Translations under genes and position numbers: made by a program
The notes under the pieces: model-generated
The model's input: only the letters and a program-made list of their open reading frames with translations
What the model was told of the DNA's origin: nothing
The model's database searches: none
IMG/VR virus record: IMGVR_UViG_3300042569_002782
Coordinates: 1-64,000 of that record
Strand: one strand, 5' to 3'
Origin: a virus
DNA: 64,000 bases
In this document: one piece after another, positions 1,991 to 61,737 of the stretch
Layout: each line of letters starts with the position of its first letter
Numbering within the stretch: the first letter of the stretch is position 1

Positions 1991-4339
1991 TTAGGAATAA
2001 CGAACAATAACTGTAAAAATGTGACCAGAAGAGCCAGTGCCGACTGCGTTAAGGTTGAGCCCAAGAGTGTCCCCGGTTGTAAGGGTCAAGGGAGCGATTA
2101 AAGTAGATGTGACATCAGTGAAGTAACCAGCTACGGTACTTACTGCCGCCAGAGAAGCGTCAGCACTTAAGAGGTTTGACCTTGTGCCGCTGCGACGGGC
2201 GTAGAGCATTGCCTGACTTGTACTGCTGCCAGTGGAAACTGGAGAGCATTCCCAGTAAGCTGCTATAACCGTACACGCACGGAGAACTGTTGTTTCAACG
2301 TAGTTTGCCCCTGGGGTTGCAGTTTCACCCCTATTGGAAACAACAAGCTTAATAATGTCTGAGGGGACGAAAGTTCCACTCTGGATGGATAGTCCCCCGG
2401 ATAAAGTTGCTCCAGCAGCAACGCCGCCATTGTTGTAAATAACTTGGCCCGTGGTACCAGCGACTGGGCCTGTTGCCCCGGAAACCCCGATGACGCCTGT
2501 TGCCCCAGTAGCACCGATTGGGCCTGACACCCCAGTTATACCCTGGGGCCCAGTTGCTCCGGTGGTTCCGATCCCAGTGGCACCGATGATACCAGTTGCC
2601 CCTGTCACCCCGATAGGGCCAGTTGCTCCCGTAGATCCCTGGGCACCGTTCACTAGTGCTAGGAATAATGAATGGTTATTACTGAAGTTGGTTGTCCCTG
2701 ACCCGGAAGAATTCAGCAGGGATACAGGATATTGCCAGTAACTATTTGGGGTGCTAGGGTTTATGTTGGACGGTGTGCCATTAATCACCCAAGTTTGGTA
2801 ATTTGAACTATCGTTTCTATCTTGTATAGTAATTTTTTCAGTCTGAGTTAAACTCGATAAGAAAATATCGATGTCTGTGTTGTCATCCGTTAAATGACTA
2901 ATGTTTAATGCGGTTGAGTTGATTTGTGTGGCATTGTTCCAGATTAAGTTGCCCTGGCCGGGATCTCCCGTAGTGGCCGTAGTTTTGGCGCTGTACAGGA
3001 ATAGACTAGAAGAATACCCTTGGGGACCAGTGGCCCCTGTGCTACCCGATAAACCAGTTGCTCCCGTGGTTCCAACAGGCCCAGTGGCCCCCGTGGTTCC
3101 AACCCCGGTAGCTCCAGTTGCCCCTGAAACTCCAACAACGCCAGTTGCCCCTGTACTTCCTATTGCCCCTGCTACACCTGTAGCACCAGTTGCCCCGAAA
3201 CCTGTTGCCCCGGTTGCTCCTGTTGCCCCGGTCGCACCCGTTGTGCCAACAACGCCAGTTGCCCCGGTTGCCCCGGAAACCCCAATTCCTGCAGGTCCAG
3301 TCGCCCCCGTTGTACCAACAACGCCAGTTGCCCCGGTTGCCCCGAAACCTGATGCTCCCGTTGCCCCGGTCGCCCCATCTGCACCGGTAGCCCCGGTTGC
3401 TCCTGACGCTCCAAAACCTGACGCCCCAGTTGCTCCTATCGCACCGGTAGCTCCGGAAACTCCAATTCCGGTAGGTCCAGTTGCCCCCGTTGTGCCAACA
3501 ACGCCAGTTGCTCCTGACGCTCCAGTTGCTCCTGACGCCCCGAAACCTGATGCTCCGGTAGCACCGGTTGCTCCAGAAACCCCGGTAGCTCCGGTAGCAC
3601 CTGATGCCCCAAAACCAGTCGCACCATCCGCGCCGGTAGCTCCGGTAGCACCTGATGCCCCGGTTGCCCCAGACGCCCCGAAACCGGAAGCCCCGGTTGC
3701 TCCAGTCGCACCATCCGCACCGGTCGCACCGGTCGCTCCCGACGCTCCAAAACCAGTCGCACCAGTTATACCAATCGGCCCAGTTGCCCCAGTTGCTCCT
3801 GATGCCCCCGACGCTCCGAAACCGGAAGCTCCAGTTGCCCCGGTCTCCCCGGCAGCCCCGGTCTCCCCAATTGGGCCCGAAGCCCCAGTCGGACCGGCTA
3901 CTCCAGTAGGTCCAGTATCCCCACGGAAGCTAGACACCCATTGGCCACCTGCCAGACCAACATACCAAACCGAAAGATACGACGACAAGGTATCAAACCA
4001 TAGGGCGCCGTTTACAGGGTTCGGTGGGGCGGATGCCGATACGGAAGCACACGGGGTGCATCCACTAGAGGACGAAGTAACTTCCTTCCACTGCCCAAGG
4101 GTTCCAGGTTCTAGGACCCAAATATATAAAATTTCGCTTACAGTATTAAACCAAAAAGACCCTTGGAGAATTGGTGGCGCAGGTTGAGAAGCAGAGACGT
4201 AGATCGGGACTGTAGTCGGTTCAGGCTCAGATAGGTTAATCCATTGCCTCCCGTTCCAACGATAGTCAGATCCCTGCCATGTGAAAGTTTCACCTGGTGT
4301 GGGATTTGGTGGAAAATTTGTTGGAAAATTATTGGTCAT
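1991..4339 (-). CDS. Collagen-like tail fibre protein
   Basis: A 782-residue protein. An N-terminal module of about 140 residues carries tryptophan-rich motifs ([46 protein letters not shown]) that probably anchor the fibre to the tail. It is followed by long Gly-X-Y tracts, mostly [15 protein letters not shown]-type, interrupted by a globular insert of about 125 residues (coordinates near 2640-3020). A C-terminal beta domain of about 150 residues follows, ending in VIVRYS. Collagen-like triplets form trimeric rods in phage fibres. Codon use in the repeats varies, which suggests expansion followed by drift rather than a very recent amplification. Host recognition is the likely role. Confidence 0.8.
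2455..3930 (-). repeat. Gly-X-Y (collagen-like) coding repeat tract
   Basis: Two blocks of 9-nt coding periodicity (Gly-X-Thr or Gly-X-Ser triplets) flank a non-repetitive insert near 2640-3020. Higher-order units such as [15 protein letters not shown] recur about every 45-60 nt, so the tract is prone to unequal recombination and length change. Confidence 0.85.
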
Positions 4340-4774: not shown

Positions 4775-5524
4775 TTAATTTTTTGTACCTAGCATCCAAA
4801 CTTTTAAACCGGTTCCAGCATTTGTACTTCCGATCTGATTTATAAATATAGTGATTTCAGCGTCTACTGAGAGGCTAGTGGTGGACAATACTGCACTGTT
4901 TCCGCCTACTTCACTACCGGCCGCAATTACCGGAAGAACGGAGAAAATCGACACTCCTTGGGATTTAATGTCTACAATTAAGCTTGATCCAGTCGGTGCT
5001 GTATTGGTGCTTATTTTAACCCCGCTAAGGGTCATCGAGTAAGGGATACGAAAGGTGAATCTTAAGCCCGTTGTTAAGTTAGATGTTTCGTCTGAGCAAC
5101 AAAAGCCAATGTCCGCACCAGTATTTCCAGCAGGACCGATAACGCCAGTGGGTCCCGTCGCACCCGCCGCCCCTGTCGCACCAGTTAGTCCTATGGGGCC
5201 TGTTGCCCCGGAAATCCCAACTCCCGTCGCACCGGTATTACCCCCAGGGCCCGTTGGACCCGTGCTACCACTGGGGCCTGTTGGACCTGTTGGACCCGAA
5301 ACAGTACCTACAGACTTTTCAACGAAGTCAGTGTTTAAAATTCCGCCTTGAAACCAGTATTCTGTGAGTGAACCCCCAACAAAGACCCCAACGGTTAGAC
5401 CCAGATAGCGCACAATAGGTTCAATAGTTGCTAGCGCTTCAGCCTCGCTATTATACGGACCGTAACGTTCGTCAGTGGCTTTCGGAGCTTGAACTATTAG
5501 GTTGTCATTAAGATCGATTGCCAT
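4775..5524 (-). CDS. Short collagen-like tail fibre
   Basis: A 249-residue protein. The first 70 residues ([20 protein letters not shown], then [15 protein letters not shown] and a TEYWF motif) are closely similar to the start of the 1455-residue fibre upstream, so both probably dock at the same tail site. Residues about 75-140 are Gly-X-Y repeats ([19 protein letters not shown]), followed by a beta-sheet C-terminal head of about 110 residues ending in VWMLGTKN. This looks like an alternative or shortened fibre made by duplication of the anchor. It lies between the two copies of the 131-bp repeat. Confidence 0.75.
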
Positions 5525-12415: not shown

Positions 12416-13783
12416 TTAGACTCCTTCATAATACATATTGATATACTTACGTGCGTTCTGATTGCTGACTTTCTCCCATACCCCCCTTCTAAATGATTCT
12501 GCCGAATGTTGAATGCCGAATGTTGCTATATCTTTAGCCTCACTCTTCGTCAGTCCGTCTTTTTCCATTTCTGTCATCACTTTATTGAAATTCCTTTCCA
12601 ACACATCAGCTTGTTTGCCTGTCGGGTAATTTGTCATCGCGAAGTTAGTCCCTGTCCATCCACCTAAAGCTTCAGATAAGGCTGCTTTCCAGTTTTTCTG
12701 AGATAACCCCAAATCAACAAACCTGGCCACCCCCTTATCATCAATAATTAAATTATCGCCCTTAGCATCATTGTGGGCATACCCTAGTTTATGCAATTTT
12801 CCCATAGTGATATTGTAAGCGTCATCTTTGTCAATGCCATTGATCTTTTGAGGGGCCTTGTAAAGGGGGACTCCTGGAACAACTTCCATAGCAATCATAC
12901 CTTTGTGGATGGTACCGTTATCCATGTTGCTATGGGCATTCTTTACGAATCTGGAGGCTATTAATTTGGGGCCCAAACCGACTTCCCCCAGTTTTTTAAT
13001 TAAGGTAGCCTCAGTTCTACCGATATCCCCAACCTTAACGCCAATTTCATTAGGCATTCCATCCGAGTATCCAAGTAACTTCTTCGTGGGTATCTTCAGG
13101 AATGCTCCATAGCCCCCTGCACCCAATACCCGGGAGCCTGATCCTTCAACTGCGCTCCACTTTACCTTATCTGCTTTCTCTGAGCCATCAATGCTTATAG
13201 TGCCTTCGGGGCCTAGCCTTTTCATTTTGTCTAATAACTTACTGGCGGCTTCTCTGACTTTTCTTACCTTATCTGCAGGGATATCACCATTCTTATGGGT
13301 AGTCATTGGGGCTGAGGGCCGAGTCCGTGCCACAGTTTCTTTAGGGGTCTTAGGAACTGGTTGATTCTTTAGTTTCTTGGCAGCATTTATTCTGCCTATA
13401 AGGGTGCGAAACCTTTGAATGGCTTGGCCAAAAAATAGTCCCAAGTTGTGTTCTTTGTCTTGAGTTTGCTTATTTATTGGTGGTGAATTCTTTCCCGTAG
13501 GGGGGTTCTTAATTGGGGGATTTTGGACAGGGGTAAAGGCAACTGGTTTGGTAACACCAAAAATCCTGTCCCTTACTTTTATCAGAGAACCCACAACAAC
13601 ATCAGGCAACTCGATAAGACAAGTCTTCACCCCTTCGATACAAGTTGCTGAGCAGCTTTTACCGATAGAGCACCTTTTACGACCACCCCCGACAGCATTT
13701 GATTTGGACTTCAGAATCTCAGAACTCGATGGCGCATTGCCGGAGGGTGCCGCAAAGTTGAATTGTCCTTCACCATTTACCAC
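12416..13783 (-). CDS. Protein kinase 1 with N-terminal Cys tag
   Basis: A 455-residue protein with a GTG start at 13783 and AAAGG just upstream. Residues 36-56 carry the tag KRCSIGKSCSATCIEGVKTC (C38, C44, C48, C55), shared with three other proteins in this window. A low-complexity linker with PPI/K-rich text follows. The kinase domain spans about residues 205-455: glycine loop GAGGYG (221-226), ATP lysine K250 in GVKVG, helix-C E258, catalytic loop HNDAKGDN (D339, N344) and metal-binding FVDLGL (D357). All key residues are present, so activity is likely, with Ser/Thr or small-molecule substrates unknown. The next upstream gene is a 59-residue helical partner. A sigma70-like promoter lies before the pair. 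Confidence 0.75.
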   Translation of the reverse strand: MVNGEGQFNFAAPSGNAPSSSEILKSKSNAVGGGRKRCSIGKSCSATCIEGVKTCLIELPDVVVGSLIKVRDRIFGVTKPVAFTPVQNPPIKNPPTGKNSPPINKQTQDKEHNLGLFFGQAIQRFRTLIGRINAAKKLKNQPVPKTPKETVARTRPSAPMTTHKNGDIPADKVRKVREAASKLLDKMKRLGPEGTISIDGSEKADKVKWSAVEGSGSRVLGAGGYGAFLKIPTKKLLGYSDGMPNEIGVKVGDIGRTEATLIKKLGEVGLGPKLIASRFVKNAHSNMDNGTIHKGMIAMEVVPGVPLYKAPQKINGIDKDDAYNITMGKLHKLGYAHNDAKGDNLIIDDKGVARFVDLGLSQKNWKAALSEALGGWTGTNFAMTNYPTGKQADVLERNFNKVMTEMEKDGLTKSEAKDIATFGIQHSAESFRRGVWEKVSNQNARKYINMYYEGV

Positions 13784-14173: not shown

Positions 14174-14330
14174 TTGACTTCCTCCCCGCCGTGAACGGCG
14201 GAGATTCCTTCTACGCTGCGCATGGGGATGCCTCAGCGATCGGGTGGGTTGGCGCTTCACAGCCTGCTGCCACCAAAGCGGTGGACTGATGCGTGGCTCC
14301 ACGCCCGTTTCGACCCTCCGCCAGTCCGGC
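14174..14330 (-). ncRNA. Predicted omega-RNA region at the right end of the IS
   Basis: In this family the 3' end of tnpB and the right end are transcribed as the TnpB guide RNA, with the guide being the flanking DNA. The region contains the CCGCCG/CGGCGG hairpin and ends in TCAA at 14174. The adjoining guide on the minus strand would start AACCACATGATGCTTTAC. The 5' limit is only approximate. Confidence 0.45.
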
Positions 14331-15419
14331 GGCGAGAATGTTCAAGGCAGCGTTGATGTCACGGTCGTGGACCGTTCCGCAGCTCGGGCACTGCCACTCC
14401 CGAATCGAAAGATCCTTCTTGCCGTCGTGATGCCCGCAGGTTGAGCACACCTGGCTGGTGGGGGGCCATCGGTTGATGACCACCACTTCACGCCCGTACT
14501 GCTCAGCCTTGGACTCCAGCAGGATCCGCAGCTGACGCCAGCCTGCATCGGCAATCGAGCGGGCCAGCTTCCTGTTCTTCAGCATCCCCGACACATTCAG
14601 GTCTTCCAGCACCACCGTTTGGTTCTCACGGATGAGGCGGGTCGAAAGCTGATGCTGATAGTCGAGGCGCCGATCGCCAACCTTGGCGTGCAGCTTGGCC
14701 ACCTTGCGCCTGGCGATTACCAAGCGGTTGGAACCCCGTTGCTTGTGCTTCAGGTTGCGCTGTAGCCGCCGCAGTCGCTTGAGCGCAGAGCGCAGGAACT
14801 TCGGCGGGGCGAGCTTTTCACCGTCAGAAGTGACGGCGAGGGATACCAAGCCTAGGTCGATGCCAACCGCCCTGCCATTCGCTGGCAAAGGAGTCGGCTC
14901 AATATCCACAACGAAGCTGGCGAAGAATCGCCCACTTGCATCGCGGATGACGGTGACGCTGCTCGGATCCGAAGGCAGATCCCGGCTCCACTCAATCGGC
15001 ACCGGGCCGATCTTGCTGAGCGTCAGCGTCCTCCCCCCTGTGCGGAACACATGGGACATGAAGCAAACGGACTGCGCACCACGGCGCTTTTTGAAGCGTG
15101 GCGGCTTGACCTTCGCGCCCTTGCGCTTGCCTTTCAGGCTGGCCCACCAGTTGCGGTACGCCTGATCGAGGTTGCGCACGGACTGCTGCAGCACCACATT
15201 GCTGGGCTCCGCCAGCCACTGCCGCTCTGGCGTCTGCTTGGCCTGCGTGATGCAGAGCTTGGCCAGGACGGGGTAGCTGGTCTTTTGCCCAGCGGCATAC
15301 AGCTCACGGCTCTTGGCCAGGGCGTCGTTCCATACCACACGGGCGCAGCCGAACGCACGAGCCAGCGCCACCTGCTGATGCGGGTGGGGGTAGAGCCGGA
15401 AGCGGTAGCGTTGCTTCAT
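14211..15419 (-). CDS. tnpB: TnpB RNA-guided nuclease (IS605 OrfB)
   Basis: A 402-residue protein from ATG 15419 (MKQRYRFRLYPHPHQQ); an upstream in-frame start at 15461 is less likely because the family begins with this motif. An N-terminal helix-turn-helix/WED-like part is followed by a split RuvC nuclease: GIDLGLVSLAV (first Asp), VVLEDLNVSGM (Glu) and HDRDINAALNIL (last Asp). A zinc finger CSTCGHHD...CPSCG sits between the last two. All catalytic residues are present, so the protein should be an active guide-RNA endonuclease that helps retain or re-insert the element. GC-rich codons differ from the phage genes. Confidence 0.93.
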   Translation of the reverse strand: MKQRYRFRLYPHPHQQVALARAFGCARVVWNDALAKSRELYAAGQKTSYPVLAKLCITQAKQTPERQWLAEPSNVVLQQSVRNLDQAYRNWWASLKGKRKGAKVKPPRFKKRRGAQSVCFMSHVFRTGGRTLTLSKIGPVPIEWSRDLPSDPSSVTVIRDASGRFFASFVVDIEPTPLPANGRAVGIDLGLVSLAVTSDGEKLAPPKFLRSALKRLRRLQRNLKHKQRGSNRLVIARRKVAKLHAKVGDRRLDYQHQLSTRLIRENQTVVLEDLNVSGMLKNRKLARSIADAGWRQLRILLESKAEQYGREVVVINRWPPTSQVCSTCGHHDGKKDLSIREWQCPSCGTVHDRDINAALNILAAGLAEGRNGRGATHQSTALVAAGCEAPTHPIAEASPCAA

Positions 15420-15448
15420 ACCAACCACCATACCAAACTTGGGGTGCA

Positions 15449-15766
15449 ATGGCGCAACCACCGCTTAGGCGAGGAAGGCACAGCGTTTCTCGGCTTGTCG
15501 TTCATTTGGTCTTTGTGGTCAAGTATCGGCGCAAGGCGCTGAGCGGGGCGGCATTGGATCGGATGCACGAGGTCTGCCTGGGCATTGCCGAGCGGATGGG
15601 CTTCCAGCTGCTTGAGCTGAACGGCGAAGCAGACCATGTGCATCTGCTGGCGGGGCGCCCATCGAGCGTCTCAGGGAGTATGTGGAGTCTCAGGAAAAGC
15701 CGTCCTCAAGGACGGGGTTTGTGTCCCAGAACAGCCCCGTTATCAATGGCTTTAAGCAAGCTATGA
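15449..15766 (+). pseudogene. tnpA (Y1 HUH transposase), 3'-truncated
   Basis: Plus-strand frame, divergent from tnpB. The first about 70 residues match IS200-type TnpA: RLVVHLVFVVKYRRKALSG, then MGFQLLELNGEADHVHLLAG with the HUH-type His-Val-His. After GRPSSVSG the similarity stops and the frame runs through the end hairpin into phage DNA. A normal TnpA is about 130-150 residues with a catalytic tyrosine in a C-terminal helix, which is missing here. An internal deletion is inferred, and the element cannot transpose on its own TnpA. Confidence 0.8.
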
Positions 15767-18197: not shown

Positions 18198-20138
18198 TTA
18201 AGCCTCGCAAGCTGTGCAATCTGTGTATTCTGGGGTGGTTTCTGTGGGCAGATTAAACTTTAAGACACTGTTTTCTTCTTTGTACTGCATGTACTCGGTA
18301 TAGCCCCCGATGTGCTTATCGTAAAGCCATAATTGAGGGACGGTTTTCCAGTCGTGGTTCCAGTAACCCTTGTCAATAGCCTCTTGTTTGTCCATCTCTT
18401 TATAAGTAATACCACAGCGGTAGAGTTCTTGTTTCAGGCTGTCGCACCAAGGGCACCCTTCCTTGGTAACGATGAGAGCTGGGGCTTTCTTTTTCTTCGT
18501 TAGAAGAGAACTCGACTTAAGGTAATAAAGAGATTTGAGACCCATTTTCCAAGCAGACAGGTGAAGACGCATAATATAATCTGCATCAGCTTCGGGGTCA
18601 ACAAACAGGTTTAGGGATTGCCCTTGGCAAATAAAGGGTTGACGATCAGCGGCTTGTTTCACAAGCTCAAACTGATCAACTTCCCGAGCTGTCTTAAACA
18701 CCTCTTTTTCCTTGTCCGTCAAGCAAGCAAGTCCTTGAACACTGCCCCTGGCTTCCAGAATCTCGTCCCACACTTCTGGCCCAACCCCTTTTTTACAAAG
18801 TAGGCTCTCAAGAATAGGGTTCTTCCGAACATATGAACCTTTGGCTTGCTTCGCTACGAAATAGTTCGAGGCAATGGGTTCAATTCCTTCCGACCCCGCT
18901 CCGCAAATAACACTATTTGTTTTTGTTGGAGCAACGGCTAACAAATGTGTATGGCGCTTCCCACTACCGACACACCACTCAGGTTCCCCCAGCTTGACTG
19001 CCAGCTCCCTTGAAGCAGTTTCGGCCTCTTGGAGGATCCATTTGTGAACCTGGGTATTAAGTTCCCTGGCTTCTTGGGACTTAAAGGGTAAGCCTCTTTT
19101 CTGATAGAGGGTATGCAGGCCCATGACCCCTAAGCCCAATGCACGAGACTTCTCAGCGAAACGGACCGAACGGCCCATCCCCACTTTGTCCTTAGCCTTG
19201 CGAATGAACTCGGAAACAACGGATTCTAGAAGGTGGACAGCAATCTGAGGCACTGAGCGGCCAGAAACAGGGGAGCGCCAATCCTTAAACTCGTCGTATT
19301 TCGATAAGTTAAGAGAGGAAAGGACACAAACAAAGGAATGGTTTTCGTCGGTATGAAGAAACACTTCGGAACACAAATTACTCGTCTTCACTGTCAGCCC
19401 TCTCTCAACGTAACAGGCAGGGTTCTGATTGTTGGCGTTGTCAATGAAGATAAGGTAAGGGCTACCTGAAATCATTCTTGTCTTGAGTACCTCTCCAAAA
19501 AGCTCTTGTTTTTCCTTGTTACCTGCGATCATGGATTCTATCCATTCGTCTGTGATCGTTAGGGCTATGTTACTGTCAATTTTTTGACGAGAGTCCCCGT
19601 TAGCATGATCTTTTGCTCTAAGGATTTCTGGCACGTCGGGGTGTGATATGGGCAGATACATCGCAAAGGATCCGCGACGAACACCCCCTTGGGAGACAAC
19701 TGAAGCGCATAAGTCGTATTGCCTAGCCCAAGGGACTATGCCTGTAGACTTTCCACCGCCAGAAATTGGAGTTCCTGCGGGCCTCACATCCCCAAAGTAC
19801 ACACCAACTCCTCCACCATTCTTACTCAAAGAAGCCACCTCCTTTAGATGGGAATAGATCGAGGATATACTATCGGTAAGATGTATAGAAAAACAACTTA
19901 TAGGTTGCCCACGATTGGTACCAAAGTTGGAACAAACTGGACTTGCAGGTCCGATAAAACCATTCCACAAACAGTGAAAGAGATCTTCTTCTAGGGTCGG
20001 ATCTTGATTGAGTTTGGCTGCTGTTGAGGACAATCTCGTCATCATATCACGAGGTGTCTCACCAGGTAGTAAGTACCCTGCAGACAATGTGTGCAAAGCC
20101 TCTTCAGACATCCATTCGGGGTGAGGTGTATTGGTCAT
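18198..20138 (-). CDS. nrdA: Ribonucleotide reductase large subunit with glutaredoxin domain
   Basis: A 646-residue class I NrdA that reduces ribonucleotides to deoxyribonucleotides with NrdB. Active-site residues are present: C82 (PISCF), the N254-x-C256-x-E258 triad (NLCSE), C271 (CVLSSLNL) and the radical-path YY at 538-539. The N-terminal ATP cone is absent. Residues about 552-622 form an inserted glutaredoxin domain (TKEGCPWCDSLKQELYRCG with CPWC 562-565, and the cis-Pro motif TVPQLW). The redox tail DCTACEA at 640-646 follows it. A built-in reductant is unusual. The ATG overlaps the stop of the homing endonuclease gene (ATGA). Confidence 0.92.
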   Translation of the reverse strand: MTNTPHPEWMSEEALHTLSAGYLLPGETPRDMMTRLSSTAAKLNQDPTLEEDLFHCLWNGFIGPASPVCSNFGTNRGQPISCFSIHLTDSISSIYSHLKEVASLSKNGGGVGVYFGDVRPAGTPISGGGKSTGIVPWARQYDLCASVVSQGGVRRGSFAMYLPISHPDVPEILRAKDHANGDSRQKIDSNIALTITDEWIESMIAGNKEKQELFGEVLKTRMISGSPYLIFIDNANNQNPACYVERGLTVKTSNLCSEVFLHTDENHSFVCVLSSLNLSKYDEFKDWRSPVSGRSVPQIAVHLLESVVSEFIRKAKDKVGMGRSVRFAEKSRALGLGVMGLHTLYQKRGLPFKSQEARELNTQVHKWILQEAETASRELAVKLGEPEWCVGSGKRHTHLLAVAPTKTNSVICGAGSEGIEPIASNYFVAKQAKGSYVRKNPILESLLCKKGVGPEVWDEILEARGSVQGLACLTDKEKEVFKTAREVDQFELVKQAADRQPFICQGQSLNLFVDPEADADYIMRLHLSAWKMGLKSLYYLKSSSLLTKKKKAPALIVTKEGCPWCDSLKQELYRCGITYKEMDKQEAIDKGYWNHDWKTVPQLWLYDKHIGGYTEYMQYKEENSVLKFNLPTETTPEYTDCTACEA

Positions 20139-20896
20139 TTTATTGAGTTCAGGAAAGTTGTCAAGGCTTGTAAGCTAGTTAGATTTAAATTTAACTCTGA
20201 ATTGCAGGCCTTAGGCCCAACTATTCTACCATTTGGACTTTTTCTGTTTTTGTTAAGACTCCACCACTCACGAATCCTACCGGAGTTGTCCGAAACGATA
20301 GCATAGTTGGGGTACCTTTTGCGAAGGAGTTCTTCAGACTCTTTTTTACCTTTTTTGTACTGGTTCCCCATTCTAGATAAAGACATTTTACGCTTGGCTT
20401 CGTCTGAAGCTTGTTTACCTTTTCTAGATTCTGACATTTTGCTCCTAGCTTCTGAGCTGTGTGTCCTGCCAAAAGAGGGATGGTCCTTCCCTCTACGCCC
20501 GTACATGGGATTTTTTTCCCCTTTATTATCAAACCCCATCTCTTTTAGAGCCTTTTTAACCCCCTCGGAGATAGCTAGTCTTTCTTTCTCTGTTCTAGGT
20601 CTACCCTTGTTATAGGCTTTAAGCCCAGTGGTGTCAAACTTGGTAGAAGTTTGGCAGGATCTGTTGACGAACTCAGGGTTAGAAACAACTTCAAACACGT
20701 TCTGCCATTGTATTTCTGCTTTAGTTGCTGCTTCAGGTGAGTTAAATATTCCTAAAATAATCCTAGAGTCAGGGTTGAAAGTTTTATCAGAGAAGGACCC
20801 TAAATACTGGTCATAAAGGTCGTTAGTGCTGTGTTTTCCTATGTAATTTCGGCCATTATGGCTACCCTCATAGCTCAGATAAACTAAATGCCACAT
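20135..20896 (-). CDS. GIY-YIG homing endonuclease with NUMOD3 motifs
   Basis: A 253-residue protein. The N-terminus has the GIY-YIG pattern as LVYLSY...RNYIGKH, with catalytic residues following (ESSDK region: SRIILGIFNSPEAATKAEIQ with the Glu). Residues 115-170 hold repeated NUMOD3 DNA-binding motifs: NPMYGRRGKDHPSFGRTHSS, then EARSKMSESRKGKQ and EAKRKMSLSRMG. The gene sits exactly between nrdB and nrdA with overlapping stop and start codons, the same place where T4 carries mobE. It is a free-standing selfish endonuclease that would cut relatives lacking it. Confidence 0.85.
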   Translation of the reverse strand: MWHLVYLSYEGSHNGRNYIGKHSTNDLYDQYLGSFSDKTFNPDSRIILGIFNSPEAATKAEIQWQNVFEVVSNPEFVNRSCQTSTKFDTTGLKAYNKGRPRTEKERLAISEGVKKALKEMGFDNKGEKNPMYGRRGKDHPSFGRTHSSEARSKMSESRKGKQASDEAKRKMSLSRMGNQYKKGKKESEELLRKRYPNYAIVSDNSGRIREWWSLNKNRKSPNGRIVGPKACNSELNLNLTSLQALTTFLNSIK

Positions 20897-26775: not shown

Positions 26776-27177
26776 TCAGGTTAAAGGTAACCGCAAGCTA
26801 GGCAAGAATCCGAGGCATAGCCCCGAAACTTTATCATTCACTCTCCTGACACCAACAATATAGTTGGAAGAAAAATACTCACCGGGTTGTGGGATAACGT
26901 AGTTATACTTGACAATCTGCCAAATTGGAACCAGAAAAAATGCATGTTCCAGGTCTTCGATGCCCTTTACACACAATTTAGCCAGGAGTCTAGGGGTATA
27001 GAGCTGGCAGTAGGTTTCTACTTCTTGTACAGTCCCGACTTTATCGTAAAGATTAGCGGGGTCATCGATGCAACTGAGACCTTCCGATTCTAGTTGTTCT
27101 TTAAGTCTTAGTTGCTTTTGGCATTCGTATGTAAATGAGTCCACGAAAGTATCCTGGTCGTTTGTATGTAAGTTCAT
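26776..27177 (-). CDS. Unknown protein coupled to the helicase gene
   Basis: A 133-residue protein whose ATG overlaps the stop of the helicase-like gene (ATGA). Helical N-terminus (TYECQKQLRLKEQLESEGLS), then LYTPRLLAKLCVKGIEDLEH and a hydrophobic strand FFLVPIWQIVKYNYVIPQPG. Translational coupling suggests a replication-associated role. No family recognised. Confidence 0.6.
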   Translation of the reverse strand: MNLHTNDQDTFVDSFTYECQKQLRLKEQLESEGLSCIDDPANLYDKVGTVQEVETYCQLYTPRLLAKLCVKGIEDLEHAFFLVPIWQIVKYNYVIPQPGEYFSSNYIVGVRRVNDKVSGLCLGFLPSLRLPLT

Positions 27178-30121
27178 ACTTTTACCCCCTTCGCTTCAAA
27201 CATTTTTTCGCAAGCTTCTTTCCTAAGAATTTCAGCCCTATCTGGTGAATAGCCCTCGTTTGCCATCCATTTGTCTTGGCATTTAGCTTTGGGATCAAGG
27301 ATCCTATTTTTGTAGACACCTTCGACTTCACCCAATAGCCCGATTGCCTCGCGGACTAGGTCCTCTTGGGCATAGCGGCAGTTTTCCCAGTTTTCGATGA
27401 TGTAGGAAGCTTCGCCACCAATTTTAAAGCCATCCCTAAGGACTAACTTTTCAATCATCTCCTTGATGATCATCAGGGAAGTTTTTTCTTTAGTTTCTTT
27501 CCTGGCGCCAGTAGTCTCATCAAAGAGCATTTCCCGGCCAAGTGAAATTGACTTCTTGACTGATTCCCACCTTAGCTCCCTGAATCCCTGATAGTAGTGA
27601 GTAGATGGCCTACCTACATTGCACCAGTTATCTTTAAGTAAAGGCATTAAGTGTTGGCAACTGGGGTCAACCCCCACAAAATAGAGGCTCTCTAAGTAAT
27701 CATAGAGGACGTTGGGTGTCAATTCTGGCATTCTTTCATCTATGTTTCCTGTGCGGATAAAATGAGCAAACGCCATAGCATTGACTAGGGCCTGGGTAAC
27801 ATCAGCCTTGAATCGAATTCTTTGCCGAGTCGTCCAATAACGGACTTCAACTTGGAGGCGATTGATGGTGGGATCGGAGTCGTCGTTGATGATGTCTAGG
27901 AACCTATCAGTACAAAGCCTTAAGCACCATAGATACAAAGCATCTTTGCTTACCCCTAGTTTTTCTTCGAGGAACGGTATATGAGACTTTGGCCTGAGGT
28001 CAGGGGTGCCTTCAGATACGGTGCCTTCCAGATTTTCCTTGTTTTTTGCTACCTCATATTCTCTGAATGTGCTGATTAGCTTGATGCGGTCAATACCTTG
28101 TATTAAAGAAAGGTCGTTAATCTTTCCCCAGGGGTTTACCCTGCTGAATGTTACCATTCAGAGTAGACTATATCTTCACCCTTCGTTTCCTTTAGGTTGG
28201 AAGGGGACACTCGTTTCGAGTCACTTGACCCTACTCCCTCTCGGGATAGCCGTTCGGCGTTTAGTAATTTATCCAACTGGTAACTATACTTGAGACCTAT
28301 TGAATAAATTCCATTTAGCACGGGATTGTCCTTATAGCAAGGAGTTCCCCCGTTTAGAGTGTGTTTTTTACTGAGCGTTACCGCCCAGGGGAACTAGAGA
28401 GTTAATCCCCGGATCGAGGTCATAAGCAAACTTACTATTCCAATCATTGGAGTTCAGGAGCATGACGGTTTTTGGCCAGATTTGCTCTGAAGTTTGGAAC
28501 TTGTCTTCTACTTGTAATACCATGTGTTCAAACGGTTTCGCTAATTCCGTCCCGGGATTTAACCCAGCTAAATGTTACCATTTAGAGCAGACTATATCAT
28601 ATTCCCTTAGGAATCTTCCCGTTTCGGATCGCTTGATCCTACTCTCTTTCGAGATAGTCGTTAGGCTTCGTATCCCCATGGTTTCATGCCTTTACAGCAG
28701 AAAACTCTGAAGATACCTTAGCACGGTAGGTTGCCCTTAAGTATCAAAGGGTATTCCCCGTTTAGAGAAGTTTTCTCTAGGACATTACTGACCTAGGGGG
28801 CTACTAGTTAACCCATTCGTAATCATAATCTTAGTCTCCTCAGCAGAAAGGAATTTCTTAAGAGAAGATAAGGATGTGTCGTCTTTATCCTATTGTTCGG
28901 TCAAACTTCGTTACAGTTCAACCCGAGGTTTCCCTCAGCTACAGGTTTCCCAGTAGAGCAGACTATATCTTCATCCCTACTTTCATAGGGAGCTTCGCGT
29001 TTCCCCTCACTTGAGGGTACGGAGTAAACTCCTAGTCGTTGAGCCTCTTTAACATGTTGGTACCATATTGAAGTTGGCTGCTGATTGCCCATTGTTTCAT
29101 CCTCTAGGATTATTAGTTAGTGTTGAGCCAACTACCCGAGGCTCTTAGGGGTTTCCAGCAAATAGCGAAGTTTTACTTGCGCAAAAGTCTACGCAATGTC
29201 ACTCATCGCAAAGGACTTAACACCAAATCGTTCTTCAGTGGACTTAAAAGTCCAGATCGAAAATCCGCATTTGGAAAAAGCAGCAGTCATACTGTTAAAG
29301 CATTCGGATTTCCCAAGTCCAGGGTCCTTACCAACTACAACCCCTGCCATACGGGCAGTATGTTGAACTGCCTTGTCCTTACCTGGTGGGAGGTGATTAG
29401 ATCTACCTACCCCAATCCTCCCAATAATTAGCTTGAGAATTTCTAACTCAGCTTCTGGAAAAATCGTAAATACATCCGACAATTTAACCTGACGAAGCAC
29501 AGGATCGAACCAATCCCTGTCCGGGACCCAAATCCGGGGATTAGTTACAACAGTTCCCCCCAACCTGGCCATCGGATCAAACGTATGGGCAAAATCAAAC
29601 TCTGGGTAGAAATTTTTCGATTGGCTGATTTTTTGCATCTTCAACAGACGGGCCGTAAAAGAAGCTAGATCGCTATCGCCTGGTTTCGGACGGTGTAGCG
29701 GCTCCCAGAAAGTTCGAACTTCATCTTCGCACAACCCAGGATAAAACACCTTCTCAATGTCTTCAAAATCTGCCATTTCGGTGATGTCTTGAAGTGGTTT
29801 GAAGGTATGGGGATACTTAATCCCTTTGACTTCCGGGGGGGCCGCAGGTTTTAGGATCCGGTGATTAACGTGGGGTGCCCCTTCTACGAGGTCTAGGATG
29901 TAACCCTTCGCCTTTAGTAGGGCAATACCCTTATTATACAACTCACTTACCCTGACAGGCTCTTTTTTCTTCTTACCTTTCTTGTCTTCGGAGTCTTTTG
30001 GATTCTCCCCCTCGTCTTTTTCTGAGGAAAAAACCCTAGCCTTCTTCAATTCTTGGGCTTGATTGAAAATGGCGATTTCTTGTTTGGTACTCCCTGTACC
30101 ACCTGAATAGGGGTCTGGCAT
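27174..30121 (-). CDS. Helicase-like P-loop ATPase, split by three group I introns
   Basis: Exons on the minus strand: 30121-29191, 28888-28811, 28552-28405 and 28128-27174 (931, 78, 148, 955 nt; 2112 nt, 703 residues). Exon 1 ends just after Walker A (GVVVGKDPGLGKSECF) and ...KSFAMSDIA. Exon 2 reads KDDTSLSSLKKFLSAEETKI, exon 3 TELAKPFEHMVLQVEDKF...TVMLLNSND (sensor-1-like Asn), exon 4 GKINDLSLIQGIDRIKLIST onward. Junction codons become TAT (Y), TGG (W) and ATG (M). The order Walker A, acidic DD, NSND resembles SF3/DUF5906-type replicative helicase-primases. All introns fall in the ATPase core. The gene follows a terminator and ends coupled to the 133-residue gene. Confidence 0.8.
28129..28404 (-). 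ncRNA. Group I intron 3 (276 nt)
   Basis: Starts TAACTCTC after exon ...GGGGAT and ends ...CCCCTG before GGGAAAG. Core seen on the minus strand: CTCTAAACGGGGGAACTCC (P/P4), CCCGTGCTAA (Q), GGCTAT with ATAGTC (P7, one G-U pair), GATATAGTCT (S), then P9 hairpin CTGAATGGTAACATTCAG. No ORF inside. P1 pairing GGGGA/TCCCC is good, but the base at the splice U is unpaired or shifted. Confidence 0.8.
28553..28810 (-). ncRNA. Group I intron 2 (258 nt)
   Basis: Starts TAACTAGTAGCCCC after exon ...AATGGGT (P1 GGGT with GCCC, terminal U-G) and ends ...AAATCCCG before GGACGG. Elements: CTCTAAACGGGGAATACCC, CCGTGCTAA, P7 GACTAT with ATAGTC, GATATAGTCT, P9 hairpin CTAAATGGTAACATTTAG. Very like intron 3 in all core boxes and in its first five bases, so the two are probably recent relatives. 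No ORF. Confidence 0.82.
28889..29190 (-). ncRNA. Group I intron 1 (302 nt)
   Basis: Starts AGACTTTTGCGCAAG after exon TTGCGT; exon TTGCGT pairs fully with GCGCAA, ending in the diagnostic U-G pair. Core: GCTGGAAACCCCTAAGAGCC (P/P4), GGGCAATCAGCAGCCAAC (Q), P7 GACTA with TAGTC, AGATATAGTCTG (S). Ends ...GAACAATAGG before ATAAAGAC. Different P and Q boxes from introns 2 and 3, so a separate lineage. No ORF. Confidence 0.85.
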
Positions 30122-52860: not shown

Positions 52861-54058
52861 TTAATCCTTAGAGTAGTCTTTGACTCCGTCATACAAAATG
52901 TCGATAACTTTGGCAGCGTCCTTGTTTGATAGCTTGGCCCATGGGCCTTTCTCGTATGACTTCAGGGGCTGCCCAACCCGGGACACAATCATCTGGGTAA
53001 TTTCGTTGTTAGAGATGCCGTGACTCCTGAGCGCGTCGTAGACTTTGGGTAAATTATCTCTCATTTTTAATAGATTTTGAGGGGCATCTCTCTTGATTGA
53101 CCCTTTATACGTCCCCATTTGGGGGTCTGTTTTTGATCTATGGTCCCCAGAAGTCAAGGGATCGGTTTTTCTAAGGTCGAAAGTCGAACTTTTTGGCAAA
53201 AACGCTTTATTAGTAAAAACCCCTAGTGCTTCAGATAACGCGGCTTTAACGCTTTGCTGAGATAAGCCCATATCAACAAACCTGGACTTACCGTTTTTAT
53301 CGATTAAGACATTATCTCTATGGGCATCATTGTGGGCTATTCCGAGTTTATGAATCCGTGATCTCAGGAACCAGTAAGCGTCCCCTATAGTGGTTTTTCC
53401 AACTTTGTCTGAAGACTTACTAAAGTTACCATAACTCTCACCTGGCACCAGGCCCATAACTATACGACCATTTATGATGTAAACACCACCCTCTGCCTTT
53501 GGTTTGCCTTTGGCTATTTCCCCCATATATCAGTTTAGGGCCTAGACCGGCTTTCCCTAAGATTTGAGTTATTTCCGCTTCCGTTGTACTTACCTGGCCA
53601 CGTTTAACGGCATAGCTCGGGTTTCCCTTTATCAAGAGCACAGTACCAAACCCACCTTCCCCTAATTTGGTTCCTTTACTTAGGGACCCCGACCAGTCAA
53701 ATTGATCCTTAGTACCATTAATGACCCTGCCTACCTTGAAACTAGAGTCAAAATCAGAAGCATCATCTCTGGCCCATTGTGTGTTGCCAGTAATTATTTT
53801 TCCTGGCTTCTTGATTGACTCTTGATTTACTTTGGGTACAGATTTTGTGCTTGCTTTTGTGTTTGGTTCCACCCTCGCCAAGTAGTCTTCCAGACTTTCC
53901 TTGGCATCATCGATGAAACTAGCATCAATAGACCCGGATATACGGTCAATAGATTTAGATATGTCATCCCCAAAATCAACCCTACAAACCTTTAGTCGGG
54001 CTATACATGTTGACCCGCATGATTTTCCTATATCACACCTATCCCCTTTACCAAACAC
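52861..54058 (-). CDS. Protein kinase 2 with Cys tag, broken by a 1-nt frame shift
   Basis: The frame starts at GTG 54058: MFGKGDRCDIGKSCGSTCIA with tag Cys C8, C14, C18, C25, then the N-lobe (glycine loop GEGGFG 133-138, K152 in SYAVKRG). It runs into a wrong ending after GPKLIY. The C-lobe is in the +1 frame: GEIAKGKPKAEGGVYIINGR, catalytic loop HNDAHRDN, metal-binding RFVDMGL, ending at 52861. Removing one base of the G5 run (plus-strand C5, 53520-53524) restores 398 residues aligned with kinases 1 and 3. It may be a sequencing error, a recent mutation or a +1 slippage site. All catalytic residues are present if joined. Confidence 0.7.
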
Positions 54059-57766: not shown

Positions 57767-57946
57767 TCAAAGATAGCGCATCCCTTCGATTACTTCGGGT
57801 GATACTTTACCTGAACTCTTTAATTCTTGGGCTGCCTTAAGGAGGGTTTGAGCCTTTCCTAAATCAGCAGGGTCTCTGCGGGCGACTTTATAAGCCCCCA
57901 TTAATTTTTGGTATTTTTTATCGGATTCAGACATTTTACTTGCCAT
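57767..57946 (-). CDS. 59-residue helical partner of kinase 3
   Basis: ATG 57946 overlaps the TGA of kinase 3 by one base (TGATG). The protein MASKMSESDKKYQKLMGAYK continues ARRDPADLGKAQTLLKAAQ and ends GMRYL. It has the same length and conserved KYQKLM, RRDPA and AAQ blocks as the 59-residue protein beside kinase 1. The tight coupling to the kinase stop supports a fixed stoichiometric pair. Confidence 0.65.
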   Translation of the reverse strand: MASKMSESDKKYQKLMGAYKVARRDPADLGKAQTLLKAAQELKSSGKVSPEVIEGMRYL

Positions 57947-59145
57947 CAGACCCCATCATATAGAAGGTCAATGTATTTCTTAGCCTGTATGTCAGAGATT
58001 TTTGACCAGGATGAGTTGGTATTGAAATACTCATCTTTTTGCCTAATGTTGGTATTTTGAAATTTTCTAACGTCAGAATCTGACAAACTATCGGCTTTCA
58101 TGGCTTCTACTACTGTTCTGATATTTGAACTAATTAAGTTAAAAATTTTTCCCCTACCATAGGCATCCAATTGTCGTTCAGCTTCAAAGTCTGCCCCCGT
58201 CCTACTAGCACCACCTAAAGCCTCTGCAAGAGCTGCTTTACGGGAAACCTGGGCTAGCCCTAAGTCAACGAATCTTGCCACACCCTTACTATCAATCATC
58301 GTATTACCACCGTGGGTATCATTATGGGCTACACCCAACCTGTGAATTTTAGCCCTAGCTGTCCAGTAAGCGTCCCTTGTCTCTATGCCATTGACGACGT
58401 TGGGGGACTTGCCAAGCCGGGTCCCTTGTACCACCCCCATCGCGATTCTGCCTGTGGCCACCATGTATTTTCCAGCCCCGAACTCTCCGTGCTGGGCAGC
58501 AATAAATTTAGGTCCCATGTTAGCTTTGCCGACAATCTTGAGAGCTTCTGCTTCATGGAGACCTATTTCCCCAGCCTTAATACCTACATTCCTACCTAAC
58601 GCACCGTTCGGAACTTTGAAGAACGCTCCAAACATGCCCTCACCCATTTGAACTGCATTAGGGTTACCTACGGCGTTCCAATCAATGGATTTAGCTGCTT
58701 TACTACCGTCAACGTCCCTAAGTTTGAAACCAGGGGCGTCTATTACGTCGTAGACTTCTTTAGCTTTTGCGGGGAGGTTAACTACGGGGGCCTTAGCCGT
58801 GGGTTTTGCTACTTGGACTTCTGCTGCGGGCTTTGCCATGGGGGCCTTAGCCGCCGGAACCTTCGCTACCGGTTTTGCTACTTGGACTTCTGCTGCGGGG
58901 GGGCCCACTAGTGGTAACTTACGTTGGGCCAATATCTGATTAGCAACCTTAGTAATCACGGGGTTTAAAGCCCAAGGGATATCAACCATACAAACATGGT
59001 AGCCAGGGATACAGGACGCCCCGCAAGATTTACCCATCTTGCACTTTTTTTTCTTTAATTTAGGCAAATCAGAGCCACCTAGCCTAGCTATTTGGCCCCT
59101 CTTAGCGGCATTAATTTGAGCTTCTGTTCTTCCTAGGACTGCCAT
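57946..59145 (-). CDS. Protein kinase 3 with N-terminal Cys tag
   Basis: A 399-residue protein. Tag at 34-52: KCKMGKSCGASCIPGYHVC (C35, C41, C45, C52). The linker (about 80-127) has imperfect V-A-K-P-x-A-K repeats. Kinase domain about 150-399: MGEGMFGAFFKVP loop (168-173), ATP lysine K190 in NVGIKAGEIG, helix-C Glu in LHEAEAL, catalytic loop HNDTHGGN (D276, N281) and RFVDLGL (D294). The HND version and D-L-G instead of D-F-G are common to all three phage kinases. An octamer lies 26 nt before the ATG and the partner gene follows directly. Confidence 0.78.
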   Translation of the reverse strand: MAVLGRTEAQINAAKRGQIARLGGSDLPKLKKKKCKMGKSCGASCIPGYHVCMVDIPWALNPVITKVANQILAQRKLPLVGPPAAEVQVAKPVAKVPAAKAPMAKPAAEVQVAKPTAKAPVVNLPAKAKEVYDVIDAPGFKLRDVDGSKAAKSIDWNAVGNPNAVQMGEGMFGAFFKVPNGALGRNVGIKAGEIGLHEAEALKIVGKANMGPKFIAAQHGEFGAGKYMVATGRIAMGVVQGTRLGKSPNVVNGIETRDAYWTARAKIHRLGVAHNDTHGGNTMIDSKGVARFVDLGLAQVSRKAALAEALGGASRTGADFEAERQLDAYGRGKIFNLISSNIRTVVEAMKADSLSDSDVRKFQNTNIRQKDEYFNTNSSWSKISDIQAKKYIDLLYDGV

Positions 59146-60855: not shown

Positions 60856-61737
60856 TTATCTCAGTAAGTTCCCTTCCCTTAGAACAGACTCCACCAGTTC
60901 ATATTCTGCTGGAAAAAGTTTTTTCATTTTGGGTCCAGCGAATATGTAACTTGAGAATAGCTCAGCATAGTGCTCTAGTTGATTTGTTTTACTGTACGTG
61001 CTAACTCTTTTGAAGCTATCGGGAATTCCAACTTCTTTCGCTTTGAAGTGGGCGTGGTGCCCTAGTTCGTGAACTAATGTCACCAGTGTATTATTGCTGG
61101 CTGACCCTGGAGCTTTACCCATAGTATGTGGCAGTTCTTTACCTTGGGCGGCACTGGATAAATGCTTTTCGGCAGTGGCCTTGATTTTCTTTACTTGTGG
61201 GGTAAACCCTGGAGCTGACCGAATAACTGTGACCCCTTCTTTATACGCTAACCCGCCCCAAGTCTTATTGTAGATTTTCTGCGAGATGGTGAAATCTGGG
61301 TTTTTGAAGTACCCCGAAAATGCGCTTCTGAAGGCTTCTTTGTTGCCTGCAATGTCCTTCCAGTCCATGAATAGGGTCTTAGTCTTATTGAAAATCCTCT
61401 GGAGAACTTCTACTCTGCGAGGGGCGTCTGGGTCCAGGTTTTTTAAATCCCGGATGGCGCCCATGATGGAGTTCCTGTTAAAGTCTATCTTTAGGTCGGG
61501 GTGAGCTTTTACTTCGCCACTTCTCATTAGCTTGATGAATTTCCCAAGGGAATCTGCAATATATGGGCTTAATTCAACTCTGCAAACTAAACCCCGTTGA
61601 ATGCAAGTTGAGCGACAAGATTTCCCTAAAGAACATCTTTTCTTCCCGGACCCCCCCCATCTCTGGGGTGCGCCTAGGTGCTGAATAGTTCCAGCAATTG
61701 CAAAATCAAATTCTTTAGGGTTATCTATTTCGATCAT
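60856..61737 (-). CDS. Zinc-metallopeptidase-like protein with Cys tag
   Basis: A 293-residue protein. It carries the same tag as the three kinases: KRCSLGKSCRSTCIQRGLVC (C35, C41, C45, C52, identical spacing). The C-terminal half has a gluzincin-type zinc site: LVTLVHELGHHAHFKA (H223, E224, H227) with a later Glu in LEHYAELFSSY (E259). The middle (AYKEGVTVIRSAPGFTP, then ATAEKHLS) resembles the entry region of anthrax-lethal-factor-like and phage effector peptidases. It lies near the packaging genes, so virion packaging and delivery to the host is a plausible role. Octamer GGGTAAAT at 61803-61810 is 66 nt upstream. Confidence 0.7.
   Translation of the reverse strand: MIEIDNPKEFDFAIAGTIQHLGAPQRWGGSGKKRCSLGKSCRSTCIQRGLVCRVELSPYIADSLGKFIKLMRSGEVKAHPDLKIDFNRNSIMGAIRDLKNLDPDAPRRVEVLQRIFNKTKTLFMDWKDIAGNKEAFRSAFSGYFKNPDFTISQKIYNKTWGGLAYKEGVTVIRSAPGFTPQVKKIKATAEKHLSSAAQGKELPHTMGKAPGSASNNTLVTLVHELGHHAHFKAKEVGIPDSFKRVSTYSKTNQLEHYAELFSSYIFAGPKMKKLFPAEYELVESVLREGNLLR

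Follow-up and report, generated by a model that had tools for sequence, protein, structure and literature searches.

Three group I introns in a phage DNA primase gene and thirteen in the major capsid protein gene of the same record: candidate products of repeated site-specific homing

How does a single phage gene come to hold a series of predicted self-splicing introns, each at an exact site? The question is raised by a 64,000-nucleotide (nt) stretch of viral DNA (positions 1 to 64,000 of the 110,489-base IMG/VR record IMGVR_UViG_3300042569_002782; hereafter 'the window'), in which a minus-strand DNA primase gene at 27174-30121 is interrupted three times, and by the rest of the record, in which the gene for the major capsid protein (MCP) is interrupted thirteen times. 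The reading that we favour, to which we assign a probability of roughly 0.87, is that the two genes carry three and thirteen autocatalytic group I introns, gained through repeated site-specific homing. The host of this virus is probably a cyanobacterium, judging solely from the relatives of the virus.

Intron cores were scored with the Rfam covariance model for group I introns, RF00028 (gathering score 50 bits). Over the whole record the model gave 17 matches, three in the primase gene and 14 between 80,001 and 85,677; in the Rfam scan of the window, no family other than RF00028 reached threshold. The primase matches, on the minus strand at 28939-29220 (83.2 bits, E 1.2e-19), 28144-28414 (64.7 bits) and 28568-28820 (58.0 bits), all exceed the gathering score. 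A preliminary description of this DNA had proposed three group I introns in one gene and had named a covariance-model search as a check; the search recovers all three, and there are relatives that lack exactly these stretches. The P7 5′ strand GACTA, which it had assigned to every core, is present in introns 1 and 2, and intron 3 has GGCTA.

The interrupted gene, previously described as helicase-like, is by homology a phage DNA primase. The PHROG family phrog_25243 ('DNA primase') matches both outer exons (profile positions 11-273 and 342-585 of 610; E 7.1e-55 and 2.9e-44), and all nine phage records with a relative of the gene are annotated as primase. The best cultured match, in Synechococcus phage S-CBWM1, is 54.1% identical over the whole protein and is encoded in one piece; the only Pfam match, to DUF5906, is sub-threshold (19.4 bits vs. 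a cut-off of 27.6). Homologues that translate the intervening sequence, which by the preliminary description would speak against introns, were sought and not found: nine phage records align in one piece each.

Exon boundaries were set by splice-aware alignment to L012, a locus with a contiguous, intron-less primase gene (67% identity in the best segment, 674 residues), and the spliced gene was aligned to five more relatives. The features, from start to stop codon, are as follows.

29191-30121, minus strand: primase exon 1, 931 nt, start codon at 30121, from the alignment to L012.
28889-29190, minus strand: group I intron 1, 302 nt, no endonuclease open reading frame (ORF), RF00028 at 83.2 bits, P1 of 6 base pairs (bp), absent from L012 and L013.
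28811-28888, minus strand: primase exon 2, 78 nt, from the alignment to L012.
28520-28810, minus strand: group I intron 2, 291 nt, RF00028 at 58.0 bits, absent from L012, present in L013.
28405-28519, minus strand: primase exon 3, 115 nt, from the alignment to L012.
28096-28404, minus strand: group I intron 3, 309 nt, RF00028 at 64.7 bits, absent from L012 and L013.
27174-28095, minus strand: primase exon 4, 922 nt, stop codon at 27174, from the alignment to L012.

These boundaries agree with the preliminary description at every 5′ site and at the 3′ site of intron 1, and P1 pairing, on which its choice of sites had drawn, proved a sound guide to these 5′ sites. Its 3′ ends of introns 2 and 3 (28553 and 28129) fall 33 nt too early, because they were placed inside the P9 tails; the corrected ends lie further downstream, at 28520 and 28096, and each of the earlier choices adds 11 residues from an intron 3′ tail that are absent from the contiguous L012 homologue. 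The corrected junctions, 28811/28519 and 28405/28095, join exons of 931, 78, 115 and 922 nt into a 2046-nt coding sequence for 681 amino acids, in place of the 703 residues (2112 nt; exons of 931, 78, 148 and 955 nt) previously predicted, and the protein at these junctions resembles L012 (ITNG-(L/I)(L/F)QVE and DLDPGIIDRIKLI). Exon 1 contains VVGKDPGLGKS, which we take to be the Walker A-like stretch, and VMLLNSND is presumably the sensor-1 region; the earlier placement of all insertions between Walker A and the sensor stands except for intron 3, which is located after VMLLNSND.

The six relative loci differ in which primase introns they hold: L012 has none, L013 has intron 2 only, and L014-L017 have all three. 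Intron 3 also occurs as long, endonuclease-sized alleles of 802 nt (L014 and L015) and 941 nt (L016), and L014 and L016 differ in the ORF that it contains, both ORFs being endonuclease-like in appearance. Over about 150 nt, the primase introns of the window are 72-76% identical to T4 td-type phage introns, among them those in the thymidylate synthase gene of Salmonella phage Melville; the td-type introns occupy another host gene, and none of the three in the window contains an endonuclease gene.

The second gene lies outside the window.

79833-85616 of the record (2834-8617 of L010), minus strand: MCP gene, interrupted by 13 group I introns, exon lengths 5-539 nt.

By homology the gene with thirteen introns encodes the MCP. 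Its largest exon matches phrog_1005, major head protein (E 1.5e-24), the MCP of S-CBWM1 is 59.0% identical, and the locus sits among head genes, with a portal protein and a head maturation protease upstream (PHROG). Introns account for 4,725 of the 5,784 nt of the region, and each overlaps an RF00028 match; 12 of the 13 matches reach the gathering score, and the remaining one scores 46.0 bits (E 3.9e-9).

As a reference for exon boundaries we used L030, which has the only uninterrupted MCP gene among the loci closest to this phage (L030 4177-5235, a 1,059-nt coding sequence). Splice-aware alignment to L030 yields 14 exons, of 9, 27, 5, 52, 57, 10, 32, 81, 8, 37, 38, 539, 32 and 132 nt, separated by introns at sites 9, 36, 41, 93, 150, 160, 192, 273, 281, 318, 356, 895 and 927 in L030 coordinates. 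The joined frame has no internal stop, and the protein is 99% identical to that of L030, differing at three residues (110, 160 and 294). The real alignment scores 1905, vs. -559 to -612 for ten of ten codon-shuffled controls. At site 93, an alternative 3′ end after GTTAAG, read from the sequence, would keep the frame and add four residues.

Guide pairing points to the same boundaries. A P1 helix of 4-7 bp, with a U·G pair at the 5′ splice site, can be drawn for all 16 introns of the record, primase and MCP together. The summed P1 score is 139, whereas controls with randomly chosen exon ends in U average 83.2 (standard deviation 8.7, maximum 120; 0 of 2000 controls as high). Exon 3 at 85031-85035 of the record, the shortest, lies between sites 36 and 41 and reads CCCAT in each of the six regions that have both introns (this record, L018, L020, L051, L052 and L053, the first two of which are identical), and its last four letters pair with the guide of the next intron (CCAU with GUGG).

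Relatives of the MCP gene show introns present or absent at exactly these sites. We analyzed the best 80 of 239 MCP relatives found in IMG/VR, together with the best 80 of 260 from a second query, which overlap the first. Of the 80 loci from the first query, 37 show an intron motif in one or more gaps, 28 are free of gaps, and 15 have only motif-less gaps, mostly near the MCP 3′ end, which we take as alignment noise. Some loci are fragments, and counts per locus are therefore minima; counts took only gaps with the S-box motif, a filter that also removed the site-318 intron of this record, L018 and L020 (the S-box of that intron reads AATATAGTC in this record). The 178 introns so counted fall on 18 labels, which reduce to 15 MCP sites when labels 76 (L046), 889 (L047) and 892 (L050) are not counted as separate; L046 is a disordered fragment with a negative alignment score, and the endonuclease of L050 falls in the site-895 group (60-75% identity). 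After this record and L018, with 13 introns each, the highest counts are 12 in L053 and, by alignment, 11 in L051 (incomplete) and L052.

L018 belongs to a second record, of 279,339 bases, and contains the 5,784-nt MCP region letter for letter; the 12,945-nt primase locus of the same record, L017, occurs exactly in the window, and the two records may represent the same strain. L020, L051 and L053 have exons 96.6-97.9% identical to those of this record (first 850 nt) and other combinations of introns at the same sites. In one group with exons 98.6-100% identical (last 700 nt), L023 has introns at sites 9, 36, 75, 93, 318 and 895, vs. sites 9, 41, 281 and 303 in L043. L042 and L028 are at least 99% identical in each piece compared, and L042 lacks exactly the introns at 93, 318 and 895, with 0 mismatches in 225 and 1 in 578 positions in the exons between the absent introns. 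Exact absence with conserved exons is thus observed for the primase gene (L012 and L013) and for the MCP gene (L030 for all 13 introns, L042 for three). L030 and L042 may be either DNA alleles or contigs derived from spliced RNA; in the latter case they would display splicing directly, but no such weight is placed on them.

The MCP introns also occur in endonuclease-sized form. Introns longer than 600 nt with an ORF are found at 10 of the 15 MCP sites (45 introns). In this record 2 of the 13 MCP introns have an endonuclease gene, with PHROG homing endonuclease matches at E 4.8e-30 and 6.3e-21 (cleavage putative). Among 27 distinct endonuclease ORFs, 30 of 37 same-site pairs are 56-99% identical, and 156 of 314 different-site pairs match at E < 1e-5, with a maximum of 40.9% identity over at least 100 residues. 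By these matches the endonucleases of the MCP sites form one diverged family, which overturns a first impression by eye that those of different sites are unrelated. The idea that the endonuclease leader peptide follows the genome was partly borne out, for one group of sites only; sites 9, 41 and 93 start differently. In the window itself, an ORF with a NUMOD3 motif at 20135-20896 (minus strand), between two ORFs that by eye resemble ribonucleotide reductase subunits, is a candidate free-standing homing endonuclease.

Intron likeness follows the site. We compared 77 of 149 eligible introns, from 15 regions chosen to thin near-copies. The 5′ parts are 89.6% similar for introns of the same site in different genomes vs. 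20.9% for introns of different sites in the same genome; the corresponding values are 74.3% vs. 57.2% for the core and 90.1% vs. 70.9% for the 3′ part. Such clustering by site is what one would expect of lineages that home site-specifically and exchange some core modules inside a genome. Copying within the genome as the main source of the MCP array is not favoured, since the introns cluster by site rather than by genome.

We propose the following scheme, in which splicing itself, endonuclease cutting and the order of events are what we infer. The MCP gene would be transcribed as one long capsid message, and each intron would be cut out of the pre-mRNA by its own ribozyme. In group I chemistry an internal guide pairs with the end of the upstream exon, cleavage by an attacking G follows a U, and exon ligation takes place behind the terminal G of the intron; here the internal guide sequence would pair with the 4-7 nt that close the upstream exon. 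Homing would begin when an intron that encodes an HNH-type endonuclease cuts an intron-less allele at one site and is copied in; the endonuclease gene would often be deleted later, leaving a bare ribozyme of about 240-280 nt. Gain would have been repeated at about 15 MCP sites by a radiating family of related endonucleases, until 13 introns had accumulated in one genome.

Several observations weigh against this scheme or narrow what it covers. Excision of the primase and MCP introns is a prediction from sequence, and the splice-site counts are biased by construction, since the alignment scoring rewards U before the intron and G at its end: the U before the intron in 178 of 178 cases and the G at the end in 174 of 178 over the relatives carry this bias, and the terminal G of 15 of the 16 introns in this record is for the same reason not independent evidence. 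The site-93 intron (intron 4, record 84439-84715) ends in A here and in L018, L020 and L051, whereas other strains have G at this position; a terminal A would not be expected of a functional group I intron. Sites 75, 150, 160, 192 and 927 have no endonuclease-sized allele among the alleles compared. Pfam support for nuclease identity is weak, with 2 of 9 scanned ORFs passing the cut-off, both as NUMOD3 (the site-36 ORF was outside the scan). The 7 other same-site endonuclease pairs (of 37) belong without exception to site 895, at which the L020 and L053 alleles are clearly different (30-36% identity); these alleles, together with the two ORFs of primase intron 3, indicate that ribozyme and endonuclease are not always co-inherited. 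The distant relationship of different-site endonucleases indicates that movement between sites also occurred, and homing alone leaves the first arrival at a site unexplained.

The introns could have arrived by another route. Ribozymes might have spread within the MCP gene by reverse splicing, inserting into the abundant capsid message at guide matches of 4-6 nt, with reverse transcription and recombination back into the genome. Such a process would fit the abundance of core-related ribozymes in a single, highly expressed gene, the guide pairings of 4 bp for several introns, and the somewhat greater likeness of cores within this record (median identity 65.2%) than of pairs unrelated in site and genome (53.8%). 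We nevertheless consider it unlikely: the greatest likeness is between introns of the same site in different genomes, endonuclease-sized alleles occur at 10 of the 15 sites, and no reverse transcriptase match was found in this record, which may itself be an incomplete fragment. Quite unlikely, too, is a decaying relic, in which some elements no longer splice and the phage makes do with low capsid output or a helper. The A at the end of the site-93 intron in four records and guides that pair over just 4 bp in 8 of the 13 MCP introns would be expected of a relic; the intact frame and the 99% identity of the protein to L030 would not, and the A-ended allele is shared by records with as much as 3.1% exon divergence, which indicates that the allele persists.

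The array might instead be an artefact of short-read assembly from repeated intron sequences, or a dead copy, and to this we give very little credence. The introns have near-identical blocks in common, and chimaeric-looking fragments do occur among the relatives (the last 96 nt of L030 repeat an inner part of the MCP gene, and the pieces of L046 are out of order). Against both readings, the exons assemble in order into an intact MCP three residues from that of L030, the identical 5,784 nt occur in a second record, and differing arrays occupy the same sites in L020, L051, L052 and L053; the ORF lists of the record contain no second MCP gene, although no dedicated search was made.

Gain by repeated homing would also permit a more speculative extension, which we put forward tentatively and regard as doubtful: the MCP gene may be a battlefield of capsid-targeted intron endonucleases, in which a diverging family of HNH introns targets some 15 sites of a gene that all rivals have to express, each intron arms the genome against intron-less rivals and closes its own site, and thirteen stacked introns amount to immunity in effect. 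The price would be that capsid output passes through thirteen ribozymes in order. It would then rely on a 5-nt exon that must be present in full for the following guide to pair, and the guides GAAU (sites 9 and 93) and GGAU (sites 36 and 318), each common to two introns, would permit in-frame exon skipping and shorter capsid isoforms. The proposed immunity to the intron endonucleases of rivals has an experimental parallel, as described in excerpts of the source, in the PhiPA3 gp210 intron endonuclease, which cuts an essential gene of a rival phage (PMC11620839); PhiPA3 has one intron and its competition was shown by experiment, whereas competition in the present phage is a proposal.

Multiple introns in one phage gene are known. 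The Twort gene orf142 is reportedly interrupted by multiple group I introns. As described in the excerpted text of this and the other papers cited below, polymerase and terminase genes of Bastillevirinae have two or three group I introns per phage gene, and Twort orf142 and the Bastillevirinae alike combine several self-splicing introns per gene with small exons and, in some introns, endonuclease genes (PMC11878797). Three introns per phage gene, as in the primase, are thus already precedented. At most three introns per gene occur in Twort and Bastillevirinae (PMC11878797); the present phage has three in the primase gene and thirteen in that of the MCP, its exons can be as short as 5 nt, and most of its introns lack an endonuclease gene. 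In crAss-like phages of the Zeta group the MCP gene is in five fragments, with group I signature domains in three of the four insertions and up to 14 introns per genome; that gene is also split by several insertions, and here 13 introns lie in one MCP gene of a different phage lineage (PMC7886860). Jug phages average 18.5 group I introns per genome, some backed by metatranscriptome reads, dispersed over many genes (terL in two or three fragments) rather than stacked in one as here (PMC12363816). Mycobacteriophage LittleE has a single capsid gene intron, efficiently removed and likely group I, vs. thirteen here (PMC3706429).

A literature search of open-licence PMC text turned up at most four insertions in any one phage gene. 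Still higher intron numbers occur in genes of fungal mitochondria. As far as seen, the MCP array consists of known parts, and their stacking is without precedent in the literature found. Should splicing be borne out, a single viral gene would far exceed the published phage genes found here in its number of self-splicing introns, and its exons would reach or approach the minimum length at which a guide helix can still form. The array is a natural variable system (about 15 sites, many allele combinations, exon divergence under 1-4%) and could serve to test how introns are gained and endonucleases lost, how splice sites are chosen where related ribozymes coexist, and what an intron load costs or brings. 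In such phages the capsid gene is lost to gene callers: of the 14 exons here, 13 are too short or too broken to be called as one gene.

Other features of the window, all on the minus strand, include an IS605 OrfB/TnpB-like gene at 14211-15461 (PF01385, PF07282). A cysteine-rich motif resembling C.(I/L/M)GKSC..(S/T)CI is common to ORFs at 12416-13783, 52861-53526 together with 53438-54058, 57946-59145, and 60856-61737; the copy at 53-54 kilobases is in two frames, one of the ORFs has a weak kinase match (phrog_18305, E 0.0016), and one has no PHROG match. Collagen-like proteins with Gly-X-Y repeats (GATGATG... repeats) are encoded at 1991-4339 and 4775-5524, and are probably fibre proteins.

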